Shown here piece by piece: positions 19,316 through 33,835 of a stretch of 41,229 nt of DNA (position 1 is its first letter; every line of letters starts with the position of its first letter). Both the position numbers and the translations under genes were made by a program. The notes under the pieces are model-generated. The model did not search any database. It was not told where the DNA came from and worked only from the letters and a program-made list of their open reading frames with translations. Origin of the DNA: Patescibacteria group bacterium (GTDB lineage Bacteria; Patescibacteriota; WWE3; 0-14-0-20-40-13); the NCBI GenBank assembly GCA_018896215.1, contig JAHINB010000020.1, positions 1 to 41,229 on the forward strand, read 5' to 3'.

Positions 19316-20486
19316 GGTAGCGTTCAAAAAATGGTGGGTGAAATAGCCTCTTTTAATCTTCAATACAAGCAAAACTCCTGTTTTTCCCCTAAAATGACCT
19401 CTATGACTAAAAAAAACTAAACATCCAAGGTGTCCTTTTTGTCTTAAAAGTGAGTTTGTAATTAAACATCAAAAACGAGGTTCTGTGAGGAGATATCTTT
19501 GCAAGGAGTGCAACAAAACTTTCTCTAAAAACTATTCATTTGGTAAACCATCATCAAAGGAAATGGCTAACTGGTATCTTGATGGAATCTCCTTTAGAAA
19601 GATTGGAAAACAGTTAGGCTGTGTGGGGTCGTTGGTATATAAAACGGTCAAAGTATTTTTAAATCAGCTTCCATCTAATTTGGATATAACGGGAGAGTTT
19701 TGTAATGTAAGTAAATTCAGTGGGTTACTGGAAGTTGATGGAACTTATGTAAATGTTAAAGGGTATAAAAACAAAATCCCAGCTATTTATGGAGTAGATT
19801 TCTTAACCCACGATATACCACACTTTGCCCTTGTTCCTTCTGAAAGTTACCAAGCCTATCTGGTGTTCTTTAAACACATAGAGCTGTTAGGATACAACTT
19901 ACGATATTTGGTTTGTGATGATAATAACAATATAAAACGATCGGCTAGATATATCTTTCCAGATGTAGTTATCCAAACCTGCCTTAAACATTACCGAAGC
20001 AATATTCAAGATGATTTAGGATTAAAAACAAGCAAGAAGTATTTAGATTTTTATCTTGAAATAAACGGGATATTTGAAAATAGGCTCTGTCTCCCGGAGT
20101 TGTTTTTTGAGGTTGTAAGAATAAGTAAAATTTATACGAATGATGAGAAATACATTTTTTGGTTAAGTGATATTTTAAGAAGACGAGAAGAATTAACAAA
20201 TTATCATTATCATAAGTTTGAATATGCCCCAAACACCACCAATCTAATTGAGGGATTTAACTCCCATTTAAAATCAAGAACAGATAGTTTACGGAGATTT
20301 TCATCGTTTAAAAGTGCTAAAACCTGGCTTAATGCATACTTCCTTAAGAGGGGACTTTCTAAGTTCACAGACTGCAAAGGAATGTTTAAAAAACTTAATG
20401 GATTTTGCTCGCTTGAGAAGACTAAAAAAGATGAGGTTTTGTTACCTAAATTGTTCTAAATCACCCACCAAAAAGTGAACGCTACC
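19316..20486 (+). mobile_element. Insertion sequence with 26-bp terminal repeats
   Basis: Inverted ends are 19316-19341 and 20461-20486, sharing GGTAGCGTTCA at the outside and GGTGGGTGA inside. It is flanked by a perfect 9-bp target duplication CTCGAGCCC (19307-19315 and 20487-20495). It carries one transposase gene. Intact ends and duplication indicate a recent insertion. It split a region downstream of minus-strand promoter P2, so whatever P2 originally transcribed is disrupted. Confidence 0.9.
19394..20459 (+). CDS. IS transposase, zinc-ribbon plus DDE-type, frameshifted at an A8 run
   Basis: The main frame (from about 19425) reads HPRCPFC..CKEC (zinc ribbon), a helix-turn-helix-like segment (SFRKIGKQLGC), and a DDE-like core with EVDGTY, VCDDNNN and NLIEGFNSHLKSR. 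No start codon exists in this frame before 19485. ATGs at 19394 and 19403 read into the run of eight A (19409-19416) and would join the frame if one A were lost. Either transcriptional slippage makes the full protein, or the copy is dead. A GTG at 19485 would lose half of the zinc ribbon. It resembles IS256/Mutator or IS1-type enzymes; the family is not settled. Confidence 0.75.
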
Positions 20487-20570: not shown

Positions 20571-20738
20571 TCACTCCCATCGCCAATTTGTCGCCTGGCG
20601 AGTCTCCGTACGGCTGTCGAACGGCGTTGATGGTGTTTCTGGAGGCATTGGATACTGCCACCAACGAGGTCTGCGGATCGAAGCTATAATGGCGAGTAGT
20701 CGCCTACCGAGAGCACAGAAAATCGTGTTTGTCTTCAC
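20571..20738 (-). CDS. 55-aa candidate precursor peptide 1 (C-terminus TNWRWE)
   Basis: The GTG start (20738) follows AGGAGGTGTATT, a strong Shine-Dalgarno. The peptide has the same length as its paralogue at 25859 and shares KTNT, LGRRLL, WW-Y-P-PP, DSR and the last six residues TNWRWE. The N-terminal half is basic/hydrophobic and the C-terminal half Pro/Ser/Thr/Trp-rich, like a leader plus core. It sits 92 bp downstream of a CofE-like gene and 600 bp downstream of a metallopeptidase gene. No known family is recognised. The Trp-Arg-Trp triplet and terminal Glu are natural candidates for modification, but this is inference. Confidence 0.72.
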   Translation of the reverse strand: MKTNTIFCALGRRLLAIIASIRRPRWWQYPMPPETPSTPFDSRTETRQATNWRWE

Positions 20739-20781
20739 AATACACCTCCTAAAGTGCATTTTGAGATTAGTGTTTGTATTA

Positions 20782-20845
20782 TAACAAGATTTAAGAAGAA
20801 ATACTAAAATATTTCGCTTTAGCGAAAGCGTTACATATTTTCACC
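20782..20845. repeat. Interspersed repeat, partial copy (C)
   Basis: AACAAGATTTAAGAAG.., the hairpin TTTCGCTTTAGCGAAA and GCGTTACATATTTT match the first 60 bases of the 95-bp repeats at 21696 and 27527. The copy overlaps the last codons of the CofE-like gene and, on the minus strand, ends in CTTGTTATAAT, which serves as the -10 of the peptide gene. Confidence 0.7.
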
Positions 20846-21640
20846 GAGTAAAACGAGGTGGGAATCTATACCACGCATATCGTTCTTTAGTTGCTCTGTG
20901 GCAATAAGGTCGGACAGCTTGCCATCCTTATCGGGATACTTGAAACCACGGATAAGAACTACAGGTAACCCCGCTTTACTTTGACCCATTAAAAGAGAGC
21001 CCGCTGCAGATATTTCATCGGCAAAGGAGATGTTTACATTTCGTTTTTTACCATAAAGATCAACTTCATCAACCGCTCCTCTAAGAACGGCGGGCATGCC
21101 TGCAACACCAATTGCAAGTCCGATGGAACCGACCCGATATCTAATACCTAATGAATCGTTAATAACCACACCTACTTTTTTACCAGTTGACTTGGCAATT
21201 GCATCGCTAATCTTTTTGGCGCTTTTATCTGGATTAAGTGGCAATAAACTTACCTTTTCTTCTTCTGGCTTTGCGGTGTTAGCACGGTCAATACCTCCAC
21301 TCGTGCAGATAAAGCCAAGGTTGTGAAGCGTTTCTACTACCCCAGGTTTTACATTAAGAATCTGCGACTCATGCATCATTAGTTCTATAATTCGTGCATC
21401 TTTGCCACTTTCTCGAGCAATTTCAAATGCTTTTGCTGAGGGTGTGATAGAAACAAGAGATACCAGACGCCCCTCCGCTTTAGATATAATTTTTGAAGTC
21501 ACTACAAGCACATCCTGGTTCTCAAAAGCAATGCCAGCGTCACTGGCACATTTTAAAATTATGGCACTAATATCATCACCTTCTTTAATTAAGGGAATGT
21601 TCGGAATTGCAATAAGTGTAATGGAATAAAGATTTTTCAT
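20831..21640 (-). CDS. CofE-like gamma-glutamyl ligase 1
   Basis: 269 residues of the coenzyme F420-0:L-glutamate ligase (CofE/FbiB N-terminal) family, which uses GTP to form amide bonds with glutamate. Family features are IKEGDDISAII, DVLVVTSKIISKAEGR, a glycine-rich STGKKVGVVINDSLG, RYRVGSIGLAIGVAG and ADEISAAGSLLMGQS. Length is typical. No other F420 gene lies in the window, and CPR bacteria are not known for F420 synthesis, so the acceptor may differ. The next gene downstream is the TNWRWE peptide. The last ten residues come from repeat sequence and differ from copy 2. The promoter with palindrome GTTACAGTAAC is at 21649-21680. Confidence 0.85.
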   Translation of the reverse strand: MKNLYSITLIAIPNIPLIKEGDDISAIILKCASDAGIAFENQDVLVVTSKIISKAEGRLVSLVSITPSAKAFEIARESGKDARIIELMMHESQILNVKPGVVETLHNLGFICTSGGIDRANTAKPEEEKVSLLPLNPDKSAKKISDAIAKSTGKKVGVVINDSLGIRYRVGSIGLAIGVAGMPAVLRGAVDEVDLYGKKRNVNISFADEISAAGSLLMGQSKAGLPVVLIRGFKYPDKDGKLSDLIATEQLKNDMRGIDSHLVLLGENM

Positions 21641-21803: not shown

Positions 21804-22145
21804 TTATTGGGGTTGGCTTTCAATATATTTTTCTTTCTTCTCATGTGCCATTTTTTCGGCTTCTGGGTGTAATATATGTGCAATTTCGTGACGAATAACC
21901 AATTCCAAACCCCCGGCCCTCTCTATTTGGTAAGGACATACTGTAATGTATTTGTCCTCAAGACAATACCCACCCCAAGTACCAAAATATCTCCAATAGC
22001 AAATAATGTCTGGAGTGCATTCTATAACTGGAGGTGTAGTTACCTTTAGCCAGTTTTCTAACCAATTTTTTCGTTCTTGAGTTGGTTCAAAATAGACAAT
22101 TCCATGATCTTTATACCACTGTCTTTTTTCGTCTGATATATGCAA
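21804..22145 (-). CDS. Small HExxH metallopeptidase-like protein
   Basis: 113 residues with HEIAH at 86-90, followed by LHPEAEKMAHEKKE, a zinc-protease signature in a small protein of SprT/minigluzincin size. The only starts are TTG (22145) or none further up; there is no Shine-Dalgarno, and the N-terminal part has no recognisable fold. Three Cys and several Trp residues lie in the middle. It is one of four HExxH proteins within 12 kb. It lies below the terminator of the Cys-rich peptide operon, so it is likely expressed on its own. A role in cutting leader peptides is possible but unproven. Confidence 0.65.
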   Translation of the reverse strand: MHISDEKRQWYKDHGIVYFEPTQERKNWLENWLKVTTPPVIECTPDIICYWRYFGTWGGYCLEDKYITVCPYQIERAGGLELVIRHEIAHILHPEAEKMAHEKKEKYIESQPQ

Positions 22146-22293: not shown

Positions 22294-22309
22294 TTGCTAT
22301 ATATAACCA

Positions 22310-22360
22310 TAAAAAAGAATAAAGGCTTGTCTAGTTTTATAAATACATACTAGACAAGCC
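22310..22360 (-). terminator. Intrinsic terminator of the Cys-rich peptide operon
   Basis: The minus-strand stem GGCTTGTCTAGT/ACTAGACAAGCC is followed by TTTATTCTTTTTTAT. It lies 36 bp after the stop of the last Cys-rich peptide gene. Confidence 0.8.
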
Positions 22361-22395
22361 AGTCTGAATCTGTGACGAAACGCCTACTCCCTGTT

Positions 22396-22518
22396 TTATT
22401 TGGATTCGTCGCACGAATCACACATTTCGACACAGTCATGACATCCGTCGTCACATTCGTCACAATCCCAGTCACATTCGTTGCTCTGACCACCCAAAAC
22501 AACGACTCCGGGTAGCAT
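22396..22518 (-). CDS. Cys/Asp-rich candidate precursor peptide A (40 aa)
   Basis: ATG after AAAGGAGGTGATAAGC, a strong Shine-Dalgarno. Leader-like MLPGVVVLGGQSNE is followed by a core with seven Cys at 15, 19, 22, 26, 29, 33 and 36, a strict alternating 4-3 spacing that would put every Cys on one face of a helix. Most Cys are followed by Asp (CD). No Lys appears before the last residue and overall charge is strongly negative. It is homologous to peptide B in the leader (LP--VVL) and core. It is the last gene of the radical SAM operon. Candidate substrate of the SPASM enzyme (thioether-type peptide) or a metal-binding peptide; not in a family I can name. Confidence 0.78.
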   Translation of the reverse strand: MLPGVVVLGGQSNECDWDCDECDDGCHDCVEMCDSCDESK

Positions 22519-22550
22519 GCTTATCACCTCCTTTCTTTTTGTCTCGCCGT

Positions 22551-22694
22551 TTAGTCGTCACAAACATCGCAGTCACAGTCGTGACAGTCGCAAGAATCGC
22601 AATCGCACAGTTCAATGCAATCGCATTCCCTGTCGCATTCGTCGCCTTTTTGATCGCTCAAGACAACGATTCTGGGTAGCGTACTTGCGATCAC
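22551..22694 (-). CDS. Cys/Asp-rich candidate precursor peptide B (47 aa)
   Basis: The GTG start follows AAAGGAGGTGATACCA. Leader IASTLPRIVVLSDQKGDE resembles that of peptide A. The core has ten Cys at 20, 24, 26, 30, 32, 35, 37, 40, 42 and 45, mostly as CD or CDC pairs, and one His. Acidic and Cys-dense. It lies 39 bp after the second metallopeptidase gene and 32 bp before peptide A, same strand. The GTG is chosen because it lies at the ideal distance from the Shine-Dalgarno and aligns with the start of peptide A. Confidence 0.78.
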   Translation of the reverse strand: MIASTLPRIVVLSDQKGDECDRECDCIELCDCDSCDCHDCDCDVCDD

Positions 22695-22733
22695 TGGTAT
22701 CACCTCCTTTCTTTCTCTTAAGTTACAAGATAC

Positions 22734-23384
22734 TTATAGTAGCTTTGTTGCCTCAACAATAGCTTCGTCTAAAGAATTCCAAATTTTGGATTTATACAAG
22801 TCACGCAAAGGTTTTTCGTTTGGTTTTCCTTCCTGTTCTGGGTTGGAAAAAAAAGTTATAGATTCTTTAAGTAGCTCATATTTTTCTAAATCAAGATTTT
22901 TGATAACTGGATAATAATAGTAAAACATAAAATGGTTTAGCTCGTGTTTTATAGTATTTAATTGGGAAGACAGATATTTATAATTTACAAAAAAATACTT
23001 TTGTTTGTAGTTGTAAGGAAAAATAAAGTTTGTTGTTATATACGCGGCTGCTTCCTTAAAAGGAAACGGTTTTTTATATAAAAATTCTAATGAATAAATT
23101 AACGAATCCCCAATTCTATCCCACACATTTTTAAGCTTTGTAATACTATCGACTATTACTTCTTTATTGGGGCTGTAAATTTGTTCGAGATAATCTCGGG
23201 TTTTGCTAAAAGCTTCTTGGTCGTTTTTTGCAGAGTTTAGAATGACTTGCAAAGGCAGATCAAGCTTTGATAAAAGATTTTCTTGGATATTACCGCGACC
23301 GTGTCTAAAGGATTTAAAATTAAAAATATAATCTATATATGTTTGCGCATCTTTTTCGATAGAGTATTTAACTTCTAATTTCAT
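22734..23384 (-). CDS. HExxH metallopeptidase-like protein 2
   Basis: 216 residues with HELNH at 147-151 and a likely third zinc ligand Glu174 (LLKESITFF), the gluzincin arrangement. No signal peptide or membrane segment, so cytoplasmic. The N-terminal 120 residues are helical and not recognised. It is placed 25 bp after metallopeptidase 1 and 39 bp before Cys-rich peptide B in the same operon, so its natural partner would be those peptides (leader removal or degradation). No clear Shine-Dalgarno. Confidence 0.72.
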   Translation of the reverse strand: MKLEVKYSIEKDAQTYIDYIFNFKSFRHGRGNIQENLLSKLDLPLQVILNSAKNDQEAFSKTRDYLEQIYSPNKEVIVDSITKLKNVWDRIGDSLIYSLEFLYKKPFPFKEAAAYITTNFIFPYNYKQKYFFVNYKYLSSQLNTIKHELNHFMFYYYYPVIKNLDLEKYELLKESITFFSNPEQEGKPNEKPLRDLYKSKIWNSLDEAIVEATKLL

Positions 23385-23409
23385 ATTTAATGTTACTATC
23401 CCACAATCT

Positions 23410-24222
23410 CTAATTGTTCGATTGCAGATTCATCAAATTTTTAAACTCTTGTTCTAAACTTGGAACTTTTAACCCAGTGTTCTCCTCAAAGGCGTTTTTG
23501 AAAAGTTGCACATCGTATGTCATGAATTGTATTCTTAGAACTTTTAAAATCGCTTCCAAACCCACCTTTTTTATTAAAAATTCAACAAAATGACCCGCAA
23601 AGTTATAACCATCATGCTTTATAAAATTTGTCCAACCTTGATAGTCTCCAATCCCCACAAAAATTCCCCCCTTTGGAAAATGTCTGGTTTTAAGAGGCTG
23701 AAGTTGATTACTGGCTACATAAGCAAGACCCTCGTTTAGCCAAATGGGGAGACTCGATCCGTTGGTAAGCTCCAAAAAGCACAGATGTGAAAGTTCGTGG
23801 CAAAAAATCTTCAAAAAATCTTCTCTTCTTCTTCCGCTAATATAACTAAAAACACTTGGGGCAAACAAACCAATAACCCTTCGCTTGTAATCTAAAAAAC
23901 CCACTTCCCAATTTTTAGTTTCTTTACCCAAATACTTGTTAAAATTCTCTCTCTCATAAAACAATCTAACATTCACTCGTGGAAGTTGGGTGTTAAAAAA
24001 TAGTTTTAGTTTCGGTTTTAATTCATTAAATAAATGCTTTACCTTTCTAAGGTCGTCTTTGTTTTTGCGCCCTTGGTATATACATAAAAACTGATGTCTG
24101 CCATTATCTACCATATATGTAAAACGCATCCTTATAATAGGAAAATATAAAAACAACTGTGAGGTTTGCTCACTGTAATCTGTCGAAAAAAGCGCGGAGT
24201 CGAAAATTGGGTTTGTCTCCAA
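23410..24222 (-). CDS. Gluzincin metallopeptidase-like protein 1
   Basis: 270 residues with HELSH at 142-146 and WLNEGLAY at 161-168 (third ligand Glu164). This HExxH plus NEGxA pattern is that of peptidase MA/M1-like and minigluzincin proteases. No export signal. The only usable start is TTG (24222), preceded by GGAG eight bases earlier. It lies 30 bp after Cys-rich peptide C and upstream of metallopeptidase 2. Likely a cytoplasmic protease of the peptide system; the target is inference from position. Confidence 0.78.
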   Translation of the reverse strand: METNPIFDSALFSTDYSEQTSQLFLYFPIIRMRFTYMVDNGRHQFLCIYQGRKNKDDLRKVKHLFNELKPKLKLFFNTQLPRVNVRLFYERENFNKYLGKETKNWEVGFLDYKRRVIGLFAPSVFSYISGRRREDFLKIFCHELSHLCFLELTNGSSLPIWLNEGLAYVASNQLQPLKTRHFPKGGIFVGIGDYQGWTNFIKHDGYNFAGHFVEFLIKKVGLEAILKVLRIQFMTYDVQLFKNAFEENTGLKVPSLEQEFKNLMNLQSNN

Positions 24223-24252
24223 TCCTGCAACTCCGCGCGCTCAGCTCACCTC

Positions 24253-24396
24253 CTAATCACAGTCGCACTGTACACAGTCACATTTGCCGACATCACAGAA
24301 ATCGTTGTAGCAGTCCTCTTCGCATGAAGTTTGGGACGCCACCTGTGACGAGTCGCTCACGAGAATGCTCACAAAACCGAAATCTTGACTGATCAT
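24253..24396 (-). CDS. Cys/Asp-rich candidate precursor peptide C (47 aa)
   Basis: ATG after AAAGGAGAGCGAAG. Leader-like ISQDFGFVSILVSDSSQVAS is followed by a core with seven Cys (25, 29, 34, 39, 41, 44, 46) ending CDCVQCDCD. Leader sequence differs from A and B while the CD-rich core is alike, as in multi-precursor RiPP clusters. It lies 27 bp after the radical SAM/RRE gene, the classic position for a precursor. Confidence 0.78.
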   Translation of the reverse strand: MISQDFGFVSILVSDSSQVASQTSCEEDCYNDFCDVGKCDCVQCDCD

Positions 24397-24423
24397 CTTC
24401 GCTCTCCTTTCAAAATACCTTGT

Positions 24424-25737
24424 TCATGACACCTCGATGATCTTCTTTTGATGCAGAACAGAGATCATCATTGCTGCCTCTGCTAATCCGATACCAAACC
24501 TTCTTGGCAAATCCTCTAATAGAATGCTAGCCTCCTTTCTGATTTCAAGAAACATCTCGTAGCTTCCATGTTTTAGGAAGGCTATCTCAACTTTCCCAAC
24601 GCTAGAGCTAACTATACCACCAAAATTCTCGTTACGAAAGCAAACACCACCAACAACCCTGAAGCGCGAAGGCGGAGTCGCTCTTAGCGTCTTCGTAGGT
24701 GTACCAATCACATTGTGAGAACCACTTGCAAGTGGGTCCATGCCCCTAGCACGCGGATCAAACTTAGATGCCACACGACAACCACCACCACAGATATAGA
24801 AGGACGGACATTCTATACATTCCTGTGGTAATAGCGAGCCATCACGCAGGTCCGACATTCGTTCCCAAATAATCTTGAGTGATTCATCCAATATATTGCC
24901 GTAAACTTTGCTGCTGTGTGGACAACTTCGAACAGATCCATCAGCACCAATGGCGCAAGTTGTAGTACCAGCACTACACCGCTTATTGATTAAAGATGAA
25001 TACTTACTCATATCACCTATAAAACAGAGCGGGTAGGGTTCTAGAACACCAACCCTGAGATTGGTATTTCTCGATAACTCCACAAGAGTGTCAAGACTTC
25101 TATGTATTGCATCCTCGGTTGGTAGCACTAACACGAAGTCCCCCAAAATATCTGGGTGTCCCATTCTCGTTGCAAAAAAGGATCTTGCACCAAGTTTTGC
25201 AGCCAGCATTCCTGTTTGATAGATCATATCTTGGTTTTGAGATGTTAGTACCATACTTACACCAACGGAGAAACCAACCTCCTTCGCGCACAAAATTCCT
25301 TGTAGGGATTTTTCGTAAGCTCCAACAGCCCCTACAATCCTTTCGTGAGTTGCGACATCGTAAGACGATAGAGATGTCAAGATACTACGAAGACCAGCTA
25401 CTTTAAGTTCCTTAAGTAGTGGGGTATCTACATGTGTCAAATTAGAGTTCAGATCGCAAGGGATGCCAAAACCACCCAACAGCTTTAGCAGGTGTAAGGT
25501 TAGATTTTGCACACCTCTAGAAAGAAGAGGCTCTCCTCCAGTTATCGTACAAAAGAAAACTTCCGCATCAGCCAAGGCACTCGCTATCTTGGTGAGAGTT
25601 TCTTGATTCGTAACACGAGGAAGAGCAACAGATCTCTCTTGACGCCAAAAATTGTAACAGTAACAGCACAGTTGGTTACAAGCCTCTGTAACCTCCACTT
25701 GCACCGATATAGGTGCTGACAGTGTTCTGTAAAGCAT
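24424..25737 (-). CDS. Radical SAM/SPASM peptide maturase with C-terminal PqqD-like (RRE) domain
   Basis: 437 residues. The radical SAM cluster motif is C20-NQL-C24-CY-C27. The core has TGGEPLLS, and the SPASM domain has CSAGTTTCAIGADGSVRSC and CIECPSFYICGGGC. The last 80 residues (GVCFRNENFGGIVSSS.. to IIEVS) look like a PqqD/RRE fold that binds leader peptides. SPASM enzymes with an RRE install thioether or C-C links in ribosomal peptides. A strong Shine-Dalgarno (AAGGAGGTGAATCC) and promoter P3 precede it. It heads an operon: maturase, peptide C, two metallopeptidases, peptides B and A, terminator. Confidence 0.88.
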   Translation of the reverse strand: MLYRTLSAPISVQVEVTEACNQLCCYCYNFWRQERSVALPRVTNQETLTKIASALADAEVFFCTITGGEPLLSRGVQNLTLHLLKLLGGFGIPCDLNSNLTHVDTPLLKELKVAGLRSILTSLSSYDVATHERIVGAVGAYEKSLQGILCAKEVGFSVGVSMVLTSQNQDMIYQTGMLAAKLGARSFFATRMGHPDILGDFVLVLPTEDAIHRSLDTLVELSRNTNLRVGVLEPYPLCFIGDMSKYSSLINKRCSAGTTTCAIGADGSVRSCPHSSKVYGNILDESLKIIWERMSDLRDGSLLPQECIECPSFYICGGGCRVASKFDPRARGMDPLASGSHNVIGTPTKTLRATPPSRFRVVGGVCFRNENFGGIVSSSVGKVEIAFLKHGSYEMFLEIRKEASILLEDLPRRFGIGLAEAAMMISVLHQKKIIEVS

Positions 25738-25811
25738 GGATTCACCTCCTTATCGGATTCTGATTCCTAGATTAGAGTTTCGGTAGTACCGAACTCTTTA
25801 AAACTACTTAT

Positions 25812-25849
25812 TGTATATCACTTTTGGAGGTTTTCGTCAAATCCTATAG
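25812..25849 (-). promoter_or_regulatory. Shared-type promoter P3 of the maturase operon
   Basis: Minus strand: ACTATAGGATTTGACGAAA, -35 TTGACG (25835-25840), 17 bp, -10 TATACA (25812-25817). It begins 9 bp after the stop of candidate precursor 2 and gives a leader of about 65 bases before the maturase. Confidence 0.75.
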
Positions 25850-25858
25850 TTCTTAGGA

Positions 25859-26026
25859 TTATTCCCACCGCCAATTTGTTTCTTGGGTAAGTGGAATACG
25901 ACTGTCAAGCGTTGAGGGTGGTGATTTTGGGGGTGTCGGATATCGCCACCAAGGCGACCGCCAGACCGAAACTACTAGGGAAAGCAAGCGTCGACCGAGA
26001 GTATAGAAAACCGTGTTCGTTTTCAC
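25859..26026 (-). CDS. 55-aa candidate precursor peptide 2 (C-terminus TNWRWE)
   Basis: GTG start after AGGAGGTGTATC. It has the same length as peptide 1 (20571) and keeps KTNT, LGRRLL, PWWRYP-PP, DSR and TNWRWE, with no indels. Divergence is concentrated in the middle, so the start, the Trp-rich motif and the C-terminus appear constrained. It follows CofE copy 2 by 35 bp (its -10, GGTATAAT, overlaps the end of that gene) and precedes the radical SAM maturase operon. Candidate substrate of CofE-like and/or radical SAM enzymes. Confidence 0.74.
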   Translation of the reverse strand: MKTNTVFYTLGRRLLSLVVSVWRSPWWRYPTPPKSPPSTLDSRIPLTQETNWRWE

Positions 26027-26061
26027 GATACACCTCCTGAAGTGCGTTTCGAAATCTGTGT

Positions 26062-26841
26062 TTATATTATACCACGCATATCGTTCTTTAACTGATCTGT
26101 GGCGATAAGATCAGGGAGTTTACCATCCTCATTTGGATATTTAAATCCACGAATAAGAACTACTGGCAACCCAGCCTTGCTCTGACCCATTAAAAGAGAG
26201 CCTGAAGCGGATATTTCATCGGCAAAAGAAATGTTTACATTTCGTTTCTTGCCATAAAGATCAACCTCATCAACTGCTCCTTTAAGAACAGCAGGCATGC
26301 CGGCAACACCAATTGCAAGCCCAATAGAACCAACTCGATATCTAATACCTAAAGAATCGTTAATAACCACACCTACCTTTTTACCAGTTGACTTGGCAAT
26401 TGCATCACTAATGATCCTGGCACTTTCGTCTGGATTGATTGGCAACAAGCTTACTTTTTCCTCTTCTGGTTTTGCAGTGTTGGCACGGTCAATACCTCCA
26501 CTCGTACAGATAAAACCAAGATTGTGAAGCGTTTCGACGACACCCGGTTTTACATCAATAATTTGTGCCTCTTGTATCATTAGTTCCACAATCCTTGCAT
26601 CCTTGCCACTTATACCAGCAATCTCGAGAGCTTTTGTTGAGGGTGTTACGGAAGCGAGGGATACCAAACGACCCTCCGCCTTAGAAATAATTTTTGAAGT
26701 CACTACGAGCACATCCTTATCCTCAAAAACAATACCAGCATTGCTAACACACTTGAGGATAATAGCACTAATATCATCACCTTCTTTGATTAAGGGAATG
26801 TTTGGAATTGCAGTAAGTGTAATGGAATAAAGATTTTTCAT
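26062..26841 (-). CDS. CofE-like gamma-glutamyl ligase 2
   Basis: 259 residues, closely related to copy 1 over its whole length, with all the family blocks (DVLVVTSKIISKAEGR, GGIDRANTAKPEEE, GVVINDSLGIRYRVGSIG, ADEISASGSLLMGQS). It lacks the last ten residues of copy 1, ending at DMRGII where the promoter of the peptide gene begins. The shorter C-terminus is a natural variation or small deletion. Promoter and palindrome are as in copy 1. The conserved pairing CofE then TNWRWE peptide is the key context. Confidence 0.85.
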   Translation of the reverse strand: MKNLYSITLTAIPNIPLIKEGDDISAIILKCVSNAGIVFEDKDVLVVTSKIISKAEGRLVSLASVTPSTKALEIAGISGKDARIVELMIQEAQIIDVKPGVVETLHNLGFICTSGGIDRANTAKPEEEKVSLLPINPDESARIISDAIAKSTGKKVGVVINDSLGIRYRVGSIGLAIGVAGMPAVLKGAVDEVDLYGKKRNVNISFADEISASGSLLMGQSKAGLPVVLIRGFKYPNEDGKLPDLIATDQLKNDMRGII

Positions 26842-26883: not shown

Positions 26884-27468
26884 TTATGTATGGGTTACGG
26901 ACATTTTGGAAAGAATGCCTTTAAATACTAGAAACCCCATTGGGGTTAGGTTATCTAAACTTCTGTGTGGTCTTATTGAGTTAAAGTATATCAAGTAATC
27001 AACAAGTTTGCTGTTAAAGGTTTCTGCATCTTCTATACAATCTATATTCCTGTCTACAAATTCCTCCTGAATAGTTCTATTGAATCGCTCTACGAAAGCG
27101 TTTGATTTGGGGGTTCTGGGGTAAGAAAAGAAATGGGATATATTGTTTTCCTTTAGATAAGAATCGAAGTATCTCTCAAACTCCAAACCATTATCTGTTT
27201 TAACTGCCTTTATCTCAAATGGGGCTACTTTCTCAAGCTTTTGATAGAAGTCCAACGCCATTTTTGACGACAAGCTTTTGTATGTATAGGCAAAGGAAAA
27301 TCTAGAGTATAAATCCACTGCGGTTATGATGTATCTCTTAAGATTAAGGTCAAATCTAGCTATGGAATCTATCTGCACCTGTTGTCCGGGAAAAAGTATT
27401 GCTTCCCCCTTAGGAGCTCTTTCTTTATCTTTTATTTGACACTTCCACCTCCGAAGTGGAAGAAATAT
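26884..27468 (-). pseudogene. IS481/IS3-type transposase fragment (integrase core)
   Basis: The open frame after an in-frame TAA (27469-27471) reads KDKERAPKGEAILFPGQQVQIDS, then a DDE integrase core: QIDSIARFDL, KTDNGLEFERYF, SNAFVERFNRTIQEEF, NSIRPHRSLDNLTP. The N-terminal helix-turn-helix half is missing and no obvious start exists (GTG at 27378 is internal), so it is a truncated remnant. Its 3' end abuts the -35 of CofE-2. It may have brought or cut the duplicated CofE/peptide segment. Confidence 0.78.
27442..27462. repeat. Short hairpin CTTCCAC..GTGGAAG
   Basis: CTTCCACCTCCGAAGTGGAAG forms a 7-bp stem. A near copy with a different loop is at 33894-33915. Both lie beside mobile or broken genes on the minus strand. 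Confidence 0.5.
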
Positions 27469-27657: not shown

Positions 27658-28686
27658 ATGAAAATTGTAAGATTAATAAAGAAGAGCAGAGGTGTTTTAA
27701 ATGGTGTCTCGTTTTTAGTTAACCAGTCAATAGTAATCGATGCGGGGTTCTCAATGAAGGAAAATATTGGATTTTATTCCCAAATAAAGGATATTGGAAA
27801 TTGGGTTTGTGGTCAGAGAATTCCTAATTGGAAATACGTTCCAAGTAGTTTTAATTTATTTATTTCGCATGCGCACGAAGACCATTTCGCAGGCATATAT
27901 TCTATCCCCCACGATAAGAAATATAATCTATTTACTAGCAAACAGACCTACAAAATAATGGTGGAAAAGAGTAAACAACTTGGGTTAGCTTTTCCCAAAC
28001 CAAGCAAAGTAGTTTTTTTAAACAACCTGAAAGAGTATGTTTTTGGCGAGATTACGATAGTCCCCCGTTTAGTAAAACATAACATTCCAGGAAATTATCT
28101 GTTTTTGATATCTTGTGGTGGCAAAAAAATCGTGTATTCTCCCGATTATAATGAGCCCTTTTGGCGAAAAATATCATTAGATGGTGGAGATACATTGATT
28201 ACCGATTTTCTCCCAGAGCTTCCAAAATACATTAAGGGAAGGTTTGACGGAACAAAAATAAAGAGATTTATACACGACAACAGACAACTAATTATAGTTG
28301 ATCATGGATGGGATATTAGTTTCATTTTAAGTATCTTAAAATTGGCCGAAGCAGATGAAAAAAAGATATTTCTATCGTTAACAATAGCCACTAATTTAAA
28401 GGTTGTGGGGGTAAGAGTTTCTAAATACGCTGTGTTGGAAAAAGTGTTTATTAATAAGAAGAAATTTATTATTATCGGTGATTTAAGCGATTATAAAACT
28501 GTTCGTGACAAATATCCTAATATTGCAAGTATCTCGAACAATTATTCACTTAACTTAATGTTTAGAAACCACAAGAAAACTCCATTTTTAAATGTTTTTA
28601 AAGGAGGCCATTTATCAGGACAATTTCTAAAAAAATATTTAAATGGTAAACAAGTAAAAGTGATTAAAGTTAACTATTACAGATAA
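27658..28686 (+). CDS. MBL-fold metallohydrolase
   Basis: 342 residues with HAHEDH at 71-76, the metal-binding signature of the metallo-beta-lactamase fold. Later ligands fit VKHNIPGNY, VYSPDYNEPF and VDHGWD, and GGHLSGQFL near the C-terminus resembles the RNase J/CPSF branch, though the beta-CASP domain is incomplete. A leaderless start: TATAAT lies eight bases before the ATG. Converges with the nucleotidyltransferase gene (10-bp overlap). It could be a nuclease or a small-molecule hydrolase. Confidence 0.75.
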   Translation: MKIVRLIKKSRGVLNGVSFLVNQSIVIDAGFSMKENIGFYSQIKDIGNWVCGQRIPNWKYVPSSFNLFISHAHEDHFAGIYSIPHDKKYNLFTSKQTYKIMVEKSKQLGLAFPKPSKVVFLNNLKEYVFGEITIVPRLVKHNIPGNYLFLISCGGKKIVYSPDYNEPFWRKISLDGGDTLITDFLPELPKYIKGRFDGTKIKRFIHDNRQLIIVDHGWDISFILSILKLAEADEKKIFLSLTIATNLKVVGVRVSKYAVLEKVFINKKKFIIIGDLSDYKTVRDKYPNIASISNNYSLNLMFRNHKKTPFLNVFKGGHLSGQFLKKYLNGKQVKVIKVNYYR

Positions 28687-29369
28687 TGCTTTTTTGTGTA
28701 ATCTATTTGATATCTAAATTCTTTTAAAATTTTTTTCAGGTTGCCCAATTTCCACATTCTTTCATAACTTTTAGAAAGATTTTTGTCAATATTATTTAGT
28801 TCACCCAACATATGCTTGGCGGAAGTGTAAGGCGAATTAAATGACTGAATAAATCCTCGGATAAAGAAAAAAGAGTTGGTCAAAGCAATAGCAGTTGCTT
28901 CGGATAACCGATTATTTTTTTCATATCTAATGGCGTCGTTTAAACCATCTTCGGCATTATTTATTCGACTTTTTAGGTTTATATCTAATTTAAAATTATT
29001 GGCGATCTCTTTTATTTCTATAATCATGTTTTTAGGATCGTATAGAGGTACAGCTTCTTTAGCAAAACAAGCATCGACAACAATACCATCACTAATGTTT
29101 TTTTTAATTTTATCTATATTGGTATATATTAAAGATATTTTGTGATCTTTAAATACATCTTTTGACATATTGTCTTGCTGGTCATTAGACAATTTTTTAT
29201 TACTAACAATAAGCAAATCAATGTCCGAATCCAAACACGCTTGGTTGCGTGCAACCGATCCAATTAAAAAAACTCCTTCAACGCTTGGTTGCTTTTTAAG
29301 ATTCTCTATAACATACTCATTTGCGAGTTTTGTTAAATGTTCATTAATTTTTTCTAATTTAAATTTCAT
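28677..29369 (-). CDS. Nucleotidyltransferase with C-terminal HEPN-like helical domain
   Basis: 230 residues. The N-terminal pol-beta-type motif LIGSVARNQACLDSDIDLLIV gives GS-x9-D-x-D. The C-terminal 110 residues are helical (SEATAIALTNSFFFIRGFIQ), like HEPN or four-helix partner domains. It starts inside the end of the ClpP-like gene (11-bp overlap), so it is the last gene of the maturase operon of part B. It might nucleotidylate a peptide, protein or small molecule. Confidence 0.75.
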   Translation of the reverse strand: MKFKLEKINEHLTKLANEYVIENLKKQPSVEGVFLIGSVARNQACLDSDIDLLIVSNKKLSNDQQDNMSKDVFKDHKISLIYTNIDKIKKNISDGIVVDACFAKEAVPLYDPKNMIIEIKEIANNFKLDINLKSRINNAEDGLNDAIRYEKNNRLSEATAIALTNSFFFIRGFIQSFNSPYTSAKHMLGELNNIDKNLSKSYERMWKLGNLKKILKEFRYQIDYTKKHYL

Positions 29370-29907
29370 AATTTTTTGCAGAACTTATATGGTCAACAAT
29401 GCCTAATTTAATCGCTTCTTGCGGAGAAATTAAGATTCCTTTTTTTCCTTTGATTTTAGCTATGTCAAGCTTTCCTTTAGTATATTTTATTAGCAACTCT
29501 CGCAACCTTGTTGTTTGATAATCGGTCTCTTCGGATAATTCTTCGGCTACTGTACCTTTAATTTCTGTTCTACCAAAAGGTAAGTGCAAATGAATCATTG
29601 TATTTTCGGTAATGTACCGCTGACCAATTTTTCCACTACTTAGCAAGAGTACAGCCATACTTGCCACTACGCCTATTCCAACGGTGCTAATTTTTACCCC
29701 ACACAAACTCATAAAATCGTGAATTGCCAATGTATCTACCACCCTACCTCCTGCCGAATTAATAAACAACATTATAGGTTTATGTGCATCGTCGATTAAA
29801 AAAGTATTAATATCTTTTATTATCTCCTTAGAACTAAGGGGATTGATACTATCAAATAGATATACACTTCTGGTAATATTTTGCGATATGTTTATTTCGT
29901 TTGACAT
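29359..29907 (-). CDS. ClpP-like serine protease
   Basis: 182 residues of the ClpP/crotonase fold. FINSAGGRVVDTLAIHDFM corresponds to the oxyanion and substrate loop of ClpP, Ser83 in GVVASMAV is the nucleophile, His106 in NTMIHLHLP is the general base, and Asp near 175 (LGIVDHI) completes the triad. It is not the housekeeping ClpP (SAGG instead of SPGG, short). Coupled by 16-bp overlap to the SPASM-like gene and 11 bp to the nucleotidyltransferase gene. A leader-peptide protease role is the favoured inference. Confidence 0.83.
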   Translation of the reverse strand: MSNEINISQNITRSVYLFDSINPLSSKEIIKDINTFLIDDAHKPIMLFINSAGGRVVDTLAIHDFMSLCGVKISTVGIGVVASMAVLLLSSGKIGQRYITENTMIHLHLPFGRTEIKGTVAEELSEETDYQTTRLRELLIKYTKGKLDIAKIKGKKGILISPQEAIKLGIVDHISSAKNYEI

Positions 29908-30635
29908 AGGTAGTCCTGATTCATTAAATTACTACTAGCTAAACTTCTAGCCTGACAACAATTTGGGCAAGTGATAAGTTGTTTAAATTTGTTGTAATTG
30001 TGGATTATTTCCTTAACTGAGTTTGTGTAAATATTTCCAAGTAAATACTTTGAATTGCACAAAGCAACACAAGGGTAAAAATTACCCTTGGTGTCGCTGC
30101 TAATTAATCTGGAGTTCACGATACCACATACTTTGCTGGAAGTTTTTTTACGCGACCGGTAATTGACAAATTCTTTATCCTTAATAACCCATGTTACATC
30201 TTCAACATCGTAAGTTAGTTTTTCTAGAAGTAACTTAGATTCCAATTTTGGATTTTTAAATAGGGTGTATACGCTTACAGCAACCGCCGAAAAACTGCCC
30301 TTATTTTTCTTGAGCCAATTTATATCTTTCGCTTTTTCAATTTCGGCAATTAGATTTATATTCTTATACTTTGCAAGTTCTTCTAGACCAAAATTAGAAA
30401 ATTGATTACAGCTGTCTACAATGTAATAATTTGATGTAGAAAGACCAATCTCATTAATAAGATCCGCTATCTTTTTGAAACGAAGAGGGTGTCCTCCAAT
30501 CCCGATCCATTTAAAGTGCTCTTCGACTTTTTTAATGAGTTTGATTATATCTTTGATAGTTACAATATGGGTTGGTTTACAGTGAACTCGATAATCATTT
30601 TTGCCTAAGTTTAGTTCTAATAAATAATCTTCCAT
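29892..30635 (-). CDS. SPASM-like protein lacking the radical SAM cysteines
   Basis: 247 residues. The C-terminal part (CGIVNSRLISSDTKGNFYPC, GNIYTNSVKEII, CPNCCQ) is a SPASM/Twitch-like cluster domain, but the N-terminal half has no CxxxCxxC. It keeps radical-SAM barrel-like features (WIGIGGHPLRFKKIADLI corresponds to the GGEP region). It is probably a catalytically altered partner of the upstream true radical SAM enzyme. Overlaps the PqqD-like gene by 19 bp and the ClpP-like gene by 16 bp. Confidence 0.7.
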   Translation of the reverse strand: MEDYLLELNLGKNDYRVHCKPTHIVTIKDIIKLIKKVEEHFKWIGIGGHPLRFKKIADLINEIGLSTSNYYIVDSCNQFSNFGLEELAKYKNINLIAEIEKAKDINWLKKNKGSFSAVAVSVYTLFKNPKLESKLLLEKLTYDVEDVTWVIKDKEFVNYRSRKKTSSKVCGIVNSRLISSDTKGNFYPCVALCNSKYLLGNIYTNSVKEIIHNYNKFKQLITCPNCCQARSLASSNLMNQDYLCQTK

Positions 30636-30847
30636 AGTAATAGTTCTTTTATAAATTTGGTTGTATCGCTTTTCTTAATTAAAGCATCTTCTAGACTATT
30701 CTCGCATAGTCTATTGACGATTTCCCAACTATACTTGTTAAGTTCCAAAATATTATCAGTTTCGGGATTAAATAAAAATATTTTTTCCCTGCATTCTCTT
30801 TTTACTAAGTTGGAAGTTAATTTATACTTTATATTTATCATATTCAC
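30617..30847 (-). CDS. Stand-alone PqqD-like peptide-recognition protein
   Basis: 76 residues matching the PqqD/RRE pattern: KRECREKIFLFNPETDNILELNKYSWEIVNRLCENS, a strand-strand-helix module with a final helix (KFIKELLLWKIIY). RRE proteins bind the leader of a precursor peptide and present it to the radical SAM enzyme. The gene starts 26 bp inside the end of the radical SAM gene and overlaps the next by 19 bp. This is the strongest single sign that the operon modifies a ribosomal peptide. Confidence 0.82.
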   Translation of the reverse strand: MNMINIKYKLTSNLVKRECREKIFLFNPETDNILELNKYSWEIVNRLCENSLEDALIKKSDTTKFIKELLLWKIIY

Positions 30848-31859
30848 AAAAGGGCTTGTGTGGTTGCACTTTTTTGTAAACTGAATAGGTCAATGCTTTA
30901 CACGCACTATCGCAAATAGGAGGCAGTTCACACAAATCACATTTTTTTGGAACCTTATATGCAGAAAACCTAATAAACCACTCGTTATCGAATTTATTTA
31001 ATTTGCCCTCAACAATGTTCCCAATTTTGGCTTCGGGAAATCCAAGTAACATATTACATGGATAGATATCCCCATTTGGTACAACTGAAATTTGACCCAA
31101 TCCTGCGGCGCAGGTTCTACCGTAAATATCATTTGGTAATACTACATCTAATTTGGTTTTTAGATTTTTGATCTCATCATAACACCTCTTTTTTTCTCTA
31201 AAGTTCATGTAATAATCTTTTTTATACTTTCCCCTTCCCAAAGGGATCATTCCACCAAAAGAGACCATTTCCACACCTAGTTTTTCCGCCAATTTTACAA
31301 ATTCTACAATTTCATGATTATTGTTTTTTGTTAGAGTCATCCCCAACATTACATGAAGCCCATCGTTAACGAATTTATCAATATTGTCCACAATTAATTT
31401 AAAATTTGTATTTCCTCGCACTTCATAGTAGGTCTCCTTGCATGCTGCATCGAGACTTACTTGTAAAATGTGCTTATACCTTAAATTTACCAGTGCTTTA
31501 TTGATAGATTTGTTATAGATTAGACCATTTGTGCTGGTGCTTCGATACACAACATTGTATTTTTCACAGTTATTAGCCAAGGCGATCAGTTTATCAGCTT
31601 TTAAAAAAGGCTCGCCTCCTAGCACATTAATACGAAATATTCCTTTATTCTTACAAAATTTGAGTAAATCAATGGGGTTAATATTAATATCCGATCTGTC
31701 AAGTTCGTCTGGTACAAAACAATAAGAACACCTCAGATTACACCCAAGGGTAACGAACCAAGTCAGTTCAAAAGGGAAAAAACCATCCTCAAAAGCCTCT
31801 GGGTCAATATTAGTTTTAAGTAATTTTGTTCTAATTTTTTTAAAAGTGAGAGACGACAC
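30822..31859 (-). CDS. Radical SAM/SPASM peptide maturase
   Basis: 345 residues. The cluster motif is C40-NLR-C44-SY-C47, GGEPFL follows, and the SPASM domain has CAAGLGQISVVPNGDIYPCN, GNIVEGKLNKF and CDLCELPPICDSAC. The SPASM auxiliary clusters mark peptide or protein-modifying members such as PqqE-like and sactipeptide/thioether enzymes. It starts at GTG (31859), six bases after the stop of the 47-residue peptide; AATAAGGTG is a weak ribosome site. First enzyme gene of the operon. Confidence 0.88.
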   Translation of the reverse strand: MSSLTFKKIRTKLLKTNIDPEAFEDGFFPFELTWFVTLGCNLRCSYCFVPDELDRSDININPIDLLKFCKNKGIFRINVLGGEPFLKADKLIALANNCEKYNVVYRSTSTNGLIYNKSINKALVNLRYKHILQVSLDAACKETYYEVRGNTNFKLIVDNIDKFVNDGLHVMLGMTLTKNNNHEIVEFVKLAEKLGVEMVSFGGMIPLGRGKYKKDYYMNFREKKRCYDEIKNLKTKLDVVLPNDIYGRTCAAGLGQISVVPNGDIYPCNMLLGFPEAKIGNIVEGKLNKFDNEWFIRFSAYKVPKKCDLCELPPICDSACKALTYSVYKKVQPHKPFCEYDKYKV

Positions 31860-31865
31860 CTTATT

Positions 31866-32009
31866 TTACCTTACTAGTTGAGCTTTTTTGGATTTCTCAA
31901 TCCTCGCTTTACTTTCTCTTATCTCCGCATTAGATGTTGGTAATGGACATCCATCTTTGCCATAACAACCAACAACTATTGGTCTTACATACAATTTTTG
32001 TTTTTGCAT
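31866..32009 (-). CDS. 47-aa candidate precursor peptide of the part B operon
   Basis: MQKQKLYVRPIVVGCYGKDG continues with CPLPTSNAEIRESKAR and a basic C-terminus. Cys15 and Cys21 flank the Gly-rich YGKDG, and VV-G-C-G-C pairs resemble precursors of SPASM enzymes. Located immediately before the maturase gene on the same strand. No Shine-Dalgarno, but a good promoter (32045-32073) ends 36 bp before the ATG. No named family recognised; core location is unknown. Confidence 0.68.
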   Translation of the reverse strand: MQKQKLYVRPIVVGCYGKDGCPLPTSNAEIRESKARIEKSKKAQLVR

Positions 32010-33097: not shown

Positions 33098-33138
33098 AAA
33101 ATGTCAAGCACTTTTTTGCCTCTTCCCGTCAAATCCCA
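33098..33138 (-). promoter_or_regulatory. Shared-type promoter P5 region
   Basis: Minus strand: CAATGGGATTTGACGGGAAG with -35-like TTGACG at 33127-33132. A second TTGACA lies about 20 bp further on, so the start point and true -10 are uncertain; either would drive the Ppx-like gene. Confidence 0.5.
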
Positions 33139-33835
33139 TTGTTTTACAAGTTATAACTACGGGAGATTGGTATCCACTTTTACTCAATTTATCCAAATCG
33201 TCACCATATTTGTTCCAAAGAGACCATTTCTTGTCTAATTCGCCTTGAATACCACAGCCAATTTTCAAAACCCCTCTCAAGATAGTGTCAAAACCAAACC
33301 CCTTTTCTCGCTCTTTATTAAAAAACCTTCTAAAGAAATCAACAAATCCTATCTCCTCGCCGTCCGAATTGACTCGCAAAAGAGAGGTATTGTAATTAGT
33401 TGGACTAAAGCCACTATTAACTTTTAAGAACTCTTCGCACTCTCCAATAATTGTGGCAAACGCCTCTTTTAGATAATAATTGGTTGCACTATTTAATTTA
33501 AAGCCTAACTCCTTGTGAGCTAGTTCAATCTTTTGATACCAGCAGATATGGGAAAGTTCGTGAATAGCGATTCTATCTACTCTCCGTCCATTCTCCTTCC
33601 CTCCGATAATTTCGTTGTAAATTGAGAAATAGAAATGATTCTTTCCGAATGGGCTAAATGGTAAAAAAGTTGGTATCGCAAAAAACTCAAAAGAAGAATC
33701 CCACCCGCAATCCACAAAATCGAAGGTTATCTCTTGGGATTTTCCATCGTTTGCTGTAGCTATCTCTTTTTTGAGTTTTGGGTATGAATAAAGTATCTTT
33801 CTATGATTTACACCACCATCCCGCATAAAACTCAC
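33104..33835 (-). CDS. HExxH metallopeptidase-like protein 4
   Basis: 243 residues with HELSH at 92-96 and a probable third ligand Glu124 (YLKEAFATI), as in gluzincins. It shares the HELSHxC pattern with protein 1. No signal peptide. The C-terminal 90 residues are not recognised. The start GTG (33835) or ATG (33826) has no clear Shine-Dalgarno. Promoter P5 lies inside its end. Its presence next to the Ppx-like gene, rather than a maturase, weakens the view that all four proteases act on peptides. Confidence 0.72.
   Translation of the reverse strand: MSFMRDGGVNHRKILYSYPKLKKEIATANDGKSQEITFDFVDCGWDSSFEFFAIPTFLPFSPFGKNHFYFSIYNEIIGGKENGRRVDRIAIHELSHICWYQKIELAHKELGFKLNSATNYYLKEAFATIIGECEEFLKVNSGFSPTNYNTSLLRVNSDGEEIGFVDFFRRFFNKEREKGFGFDTILRGVLKIGCGIQGELDKKWSLWNKYGDDLDKLSKSGYQSPVVITCKTMGFDGKRQKSA

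Follow-up and report, generated by a model that had tools for sequence, protein, structure and literature searches.

The window, the whole 41,229-nucleotide stretch of DNA analysed here, belongs as contig C20 to a genome of 772 kb that is 97% complete and split into 21 contigs; this small size and the named relatives point to a CPR bacterium as the host. The window carries six genes on the minus strand, running from 25737 to 22396 in the order maturase, peptide C, HExxH-1, HExxH-2, peptide B and peptide A. The strand, this order and the Cys counts of the peptides (7 in C, 10 in B and 7 in A) are all as the original prediction had described them. Spacings of 25–39 bp had also been given; the listed open reading frames (ORFs) of the operon are separated by 23–30 bases, and gaps of 32–39 bases occur only before peptides A and B, once their starts are set from ribosome sites. 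These strong sites, AAAGGAGGTGAT, precede both A and B and set each start a few codons inside the listed ORF, which begins at 22527 for A and at 22703 for B; they favour ATG 22518 as the start of A and GTG 22694 as the start of B.

Just 3′ of peptide A, a terminator-like hairpin (22308–22362, minus strand) is formed by a perfect 12-bp inverted repeat, GGCTTGTCTAGT...ACTAGACAAGCC, and followed by a T-rich tail. The RNA fold of 22300–22395 has an energy of -24.4 kcal/mol (z -2.7), and the hairpin, which is plausibly the terminator of the operon, was missed by a simple terminator scan because its loop is longer than 8. At the opposite end, a candidate promoter, TTGACG...TATACAAT (25800–25840, minus strand), was seen by eye as a string near 25800–25837, and is a possible promoter of the operon. 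The consensus promoter scan gave this string no score. Of the defined promoter and terminator of the original prediction, the terminator is thus plausible and the promoter unproven.

Peptide C (24253–24396, minus strand), 47 residues long, is the first gene after the maturase. It has the leader motif GFVSIL and the core CEEDCYNDFCDVGKCDCVQCDCD, and its position and motif are common to homologous loci. Peptides B (22551–22694, minus strand; likely MIASTLPRIVVLSDQKGDECDRECDCIELCDCDSCDCHDCDCDVCDD) and A (22396–22518, minus strand; likely MLPGVVVLGGQSNECDWDCDECDDGCHDCVEMCDSCDESK) are paralogues with the common leader LP[GR][VI]VVL, and the strict 4-3 Cys spacing reported for peptide A is exact (4-3-4-3-4-3). 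Across all loci, 26 distinct precursors contain 3–10 Cys each, with a median of 6. The leader motif [GA][FY]x[SG][LIFV], which was picked after viewing the leaders, occurs in 9 of the 26, against 0.2 in shuffles; it looks like the short hydrophobic strand that is bound by an RRE, to which it may correspond. The precursors are short, combine a leader with a variable core and adjoin a modifying enzyme, as is the general rule for RiPP genes. In the only close pair of peptides (L126/L127), five silent and four changing codons were found and all Cys are kept, which, from this one pair, is suggestive of conservation at the codon level. Chance was rejected as the origin of the Cys-rich ORFs, which hold their position even where the relationship is distant and seldom follow other genes.

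The maturase and the two HExxH proteins

The maturase (24424–25737, minus strand; 437 residues) is a radical SAM/SPASM protein, with Pfam matches to Radical_SAM (1.3e-17) and SPASM (1.8e-6) that both exceed the Pfam cut-off. It contains a CxxxCxxC motif at residues 20–27 and SPASM cysteines at residues 254, 272, 307, 310, 316 and 320; the motif cysteines are invariant in a 17-member alignment, as is Cys 238. No curated NCBIfam equivalog cut-off is reached, the best equivalog score being 84.9 bits, and the PapB-type ranthipeptide model NF047865, with its cut-off of 340 bits, is among those unmatched. The AlphaFold2 model (pLDDT 85) has its best PDB fold matches in SkfB, SuiB, anSME and PqqE, and the closest solved relatives in profile and fold searches are RiPP maturases such as SkfB, SuiB, PqqE and TigE.

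The C-terminal domain (approximately residues 365–437) is predicted to consist of three strands followed by three helices, the order found in an RRE, with strands at 366–370, 373–378 and 384–389 and helices at 390–400, 409–414 and 418–430 in the AlphaFold2 model. It bears a near-invariant R-x-E and, in most members, an F-G motif. The domain is thus RRE-like in its predicted topology. Pfam, PDB profiles and a comparison with the PqqD profile gave no support for an RRE in the maturase: no PqqD (PF05402) match was found in 20 C-terminal domains of the family, and hhalign against a small PqqD set returned a probability of 14.7%. Of the proposed SPASM maturase with a PqqD-like domain, the SPASM assignment holds, whereas the PqqD-like domain agrees in predicted topology and not in sequence.

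Among known systems, enzymes of the PqqE/MftC type resemble the maturase in that radical SAM begins near residue 1 with no N-terminal RRE and a SPASM domain follows, and their models match it weakly. These enzymes act on PQQ or mycofactocin precursors together with a separate PqqD or MftB, whereas the maturase has its extra domain fused at the C terminus. SkfB, the sporulation killing factor maturase (PDB 6EFN), is the best profile match (2.9e-32) and the best fold match, with 22% identity in the fold alignment, and is likewise a radical SAM enzyme with a C-terminal Fe-S domain whose substrate is a ribosomal peptide; it differs in having its RRE at the N terminus and, in place of a full SPASM domain, a twitch (PMC8326336). 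Proteusin epimerases of the PoyD type are radical SAM enzymes with a C-terminal RRE (PMC8326336), but lack a SPASM domain and act on proteusin precursors.

HExxH-1 (23410–24222, minus strand; about 270 residues, with an uncertain TTG start) contains HELSH, followed after 17 residues by the Glu of WLNEG. The invariant residues H142, E143, H146 and E164 make up an HExxH motif with its downstream Glu ligand. The protein matches Peptidase_MA_2 at 5.6e-5, under the curated cut-off, and M1 aminopeptidases in the PDB at 2.7e-5; Peptidase_MA_2 is matched by all nine aligned members of the family and M1 by six of them. These motifs and matches place HExxH-1 among the gluzincins, as a minimal relative of M1/Peptidase MA. 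HExxH-2 (22734–23384, minus strand; 216 residues) belongs to a second metalloprotein family, without a Pfam family, and has HELNH and an invariant Glu 23 residues downstream (H147, E148, H151 and E174). In fold comparison, its AlphaFold2 model (pLDDT 88) shows a weak resemblance to proteins around the M1 catalytic domains (E 0.6–3). In NCBIfam (E up to 1), HExxH-1 matched no family and HExxH-2 had one unrelated match, at 0.12. The putative metal ligands of both proteins fit the gluzincin (clan MA) motif.

The weak fold matches of HExxH-2 include EryP, an M1-type lanthipeptide zinc-metallopeptidase and thus an HExxH protein linked to a RiPP, although EryP has about 850 residues and the HExxH proteins of the cassette roughly 190–315. 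Both families are present in the window, as the original prediction of paired gluzincins had it, but pairing is not the rule, since most loci carry one of the two families and few carry both. Two further small HExxH proteins are encoded in the window, at 21804–22145 and 33104–33835, the latter matching the HExxH-2 profile weakly (7e-5).

Conservation of the cassette

A protein search of 143 related genomes returned the window and six clear maturase homologues with 28–38% identity, most of which are followed directly by a Cys-rich short ORF and then by an HExxH gene. Among 380 genomes of the phylum, 17 have maturase matches at E 1e-40 or better. Of 45 genomes in the window's class, 6 have a full-length maturase, counting that of the window, and the distribution is therefore patchy. 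A Mutator-type transposase (19485–20459) and an rve integrase core (26884–27378) flank the operon region, which may account for this patchiness. In a scan of named genomes, members in CPR bacteria come from Azambacteria, Kaiserbacteria, Buchananbacteria, Woesebacteria, Uhrbacteria, Kerfeldbacteria, a Paceibacterota and Saccharibacteria, the Kaiserbacteria member having two cassettes in a single locus. Outside CPR, members occur in Mariniphaga (Bacteroidota), a deltaproteobacterial metagenome-assembled genome (Myxococcota under the taxonomy that the tree follows) and Clostridium (Bacillota). The cassette of maturase, precursor and gluzincin is thus conserved across CPR lineages, as expected of a RiPP class in a CPR bacterium, and restriction to CPR is not borne out.

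The original prediction would have been refuted had homologues of the maturase never lain near Cys-rich short genes, and the loci contradict that outcome. Each downstream region was read, and in 23 of the 23 intact, readable members of the peptide clade, the gene that comes first downstream of the maturase encodes a short Cys-rich peptide; these members are from named CPR lineages, other genomes of the window's phylum, Bacteroidota, Myxococcota and Bacillota. These peptides have at least three, and usually four or more, Cys crowded towards the C terminus. The arrangement of peptide, maturase and gluzincin recurs in relatives with only about 25–38% maturase identity, and is therefore more than chance. 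By an automatic criterion (at least four Cys in the last 32 residues), a Cys-rich ORF follows 21 of 32 maturase-overlapping ORFs, a set in which some ORFs lie outside the clade or are counted twice. The figure for other long ORFs is 21 of 600, and several of these 21 cases are genuine peptides that adjoin other radical SAM genes. A Fisher test (p about 1e-26) was based on counts entered by hand and is given no weight.

Several loci depart from the common layout. In L047 the peptide lies upstream of the maturase instead, and in L134 the maturase is shortened, with peptide and gluzincin kept. At L128:4830-6155 there is no separate peptide, and the maturase homologue ends in a Cys-rich C-terminal tail of its own; beside it lie a further radical SAM gene and genes resembling those of a methyltransferase and a glycosyltransferase. 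A sister clade (L051, L055, L056, L058, L059 and L061; support 100/99) is without such peptides.

Profiles of the two HExxH families gave 24 matches within about 2.7 kb of peptide-clade maturases and none at out-of-clade loci. The profiles were built from members of the same peptide-clade loci, and their informative parts are therefore the empty control loci and the extra members found (in L124, L130, L133, L134 and L048, and as second genes of L123, L126 and L045). In the sister genome G001, a maturase fragment and an HExxH-2 gene with 75.6% DNA identity (L133:5687-6720) are probably a decaying copy of the operon; no peptide was seen at this locus. No dedicated peptide exporter is found among the 25 commonest of the 83 Pfam families that occur in 71 genes neighbouring the loci. 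Searches for the cassette on mobile elements led to the rejection of a phage-borne origin, IMG/VR giving weak, partial relatives only, and of a plasmid-borne cassette, plasmids giving only distant PqqE-like and GDL-type enzymes.

Proposed product and rival readings

The gene set and its order, the conservation, the leader motif, the constraint on Cys and the enzyme families are established by computation. In the proposed pathway, the operon would make a RiPP, a small, chemically modified Cys-rich peptide, from peptides C, B and A as precursors, each with a leader of 14–24 residues and a Cys-rich acidic core. The maturase, probably using its C-terminal domain to bind the leader, would alter the core by radical chemistry, most likely forming sulfur-to-carbon (thioether) links from Cys to nearby residues. 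In the cytoplasm, the leader would next be cut off or trimmed by the two gluzincins, leader removal being their likeliest role. Metal binding, signalling and inter-bacterial antagonism are candidate functions of the product. That the genes form a RiPP cassette of precursor, maturase and peptidase is highly probable; given such a cassette, the chances of thioether chemistry are roughly even. SPASM radical SAM enzymes also make C–C, ether and epimerized products, and thioether chemistry is therefore unproven. The pathway as a whole, from leader-guided thioether modification of the core to leader removal by gluzincins, is moderately favoured; the missing sequence match to PqqD/RRE and the lack of a peptide exporter among the 25 commonest neighbour families count against it.

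The composition of the cores constrains these readings. Adjacent Cys (CC) are absent (0 observed against 33.1 expected), CxC is enriched (49 against 31.7), and a Cys–Cys spacing of 7 is also enriched. The absence of CC, the CxC and CxxC spacings and the mostly acidic cores would suit metal binding, and the product may instead be a modified metal-chelating peptide, metallothionein-like or copper-buffer-like, in which the maturase changes a few residues and most Cys remain free thiols that bind metal. We regard this as unlikely: Cys spacing differs widely from locus to locus, unlike a fixed metal site, and the 25 commonest of 83 neighbour families contain no recurrent family of metal transporters or metal sensors. 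A precedent exists in Cys-rich copper-binding RiPPs (PMC12452194, PMC12538549); these peptides, bufferins among them, are likewise small and Cys-rich with a dedicated modification enzyme, but are made by MNIO (DUF692) enzymes rather than radical SAM enzymes (PMC12452194).

Asp directly after Cys (CD) is enriched as well (67 observed against 44.6 expected, z 5.5), which would suit Cys–Asp β-thioethers as formed by PapB in freyrasin, PapB accepting Cys-Xn-Asp with n of 0–6 (PMC9413430). The PapB/freyrasin ranthipeptides and SCIFF/CteB share with the cassette short peptides with many Cys and, in most cores, both Cys and Asp. PapB, however, prefers CX3D to CX0D in nested substrates (PMC9413430), and Cys-X3-Asp stands at chance in the cores (28 against 29.5, counting only Asp), three of which (L129, L054 and L060) contain no Asp at all. 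A universal Cys–Asp thioether is therefore unlikely, and the Cys–Asp rule drawn from the original prediction is not supported. The maturase also scores below the cut-offs of these families, and the PapB model is absent from the best 25 NCBIfam matches of the window maturase; a PapB-like activity is accordingly improbable.

The gluzincins could act other than on leaders, as immunity or clean-up proteases destroying the peptide or on other targets. The alternation of two different families between loci, and a gluzincin gene on the opposite strand in L044, L048 and L053, would be consistent with such a role, which we nevertheless consider quite improbable, as the tight linkage of the gluzincin gene, which often follows the peptide immediately within a shared transcription unit, suits a biosynthetic role at least as well. 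It is very improbable that the HExxH proteins are α-ketoglutarate-dependent hydroxylases that modify Asp. In favour of this reading, most cores are Asp-rich, and in other RiPPs HEXXH hydroxylases work alongside radical SAM enzymes and hydroxylate Asp and His (PMC12636437). Against it, HExxH-1 has the third-ligand Glu and M1/Peptidase MA matches, the hydroxylase model TIGR04267 was matched by neither protein (NCBIfam, E up to 1), and these oxygenases need O2, whereas most CPR bacteria are regarded as anaerobes.

With leader-guided modification and gluzincin trimming as the preferred reading, the cassette is a real and apparently unnamed RiPP-type family. A literature search, with most subscription journals outside its coverage, found no paper describing it. 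As a kind, radical SAM enzymes with Cys-rich peptides as substrates are already known; the maturase family, its C-terminal extra domain, the two gluzincin families and the spread across CPR are apparently without a description in the sources searched. Categorically new product chemistry is possible. More tentatively, and at less than even chances, the cassette would represent a RiPP class of its own, either ancient or spread widely by transfer among CPR bacteria, with a SPASM radical SAM enzyme that has its recognition domain fused at the C terminus, CC-free cores, interchangeable minimal leader peptidases of two gluzincin families and a poly-thioether product of a new pattern. The genomes of CPR bacteria are very small, and a life on other microbes is assumed for many of these organisms; to our knowledge, few of their specialized products have been described. 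A peptide-modifying cassette kept in such tiny genomes therefore points to a product that pays its cost. With only three to six genes, it could be transferred to a laboratory strain for direct testing.

Other peptide clusters

A second RiPP-like cluster occupies 28677–32009 of the window on the minus strand. It comprises a 47-residue peptide (31866–32009), a radical SAM/SPASM protein (30822–31859), a 76-residue PqqD-like protein (30617–30847; PqqD E 0.17, below the cut-off), a SPASM-only protein (29892–30635) and a ClpP-like protease (29359–29907), all on the minus strand, and also includes a nucleotidyltransferase. In relatives, another radical SAM enzyme followed by a 62-residue peptide with 15 Cys is found at L126:9318-10846, and Cys-rich peptides outside the maturase family lie beside a radical SAM gene at L130:5488-6691 and beside a Cys-containing 492-residue protein at L052:5100-6711.

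A CofE/F420-ligase-like gene is duplicated in the window (20571–21640 and 25859–26841, minus strand), and each copy precedes one of two paralogous ORFs of approximately 55 residues (VKTNT..LGRRLL...WW.YP.PP...TNWRWE). These ORFs have a strong ribosome site and indels that keep the frame, and are the only two copies in the genome.
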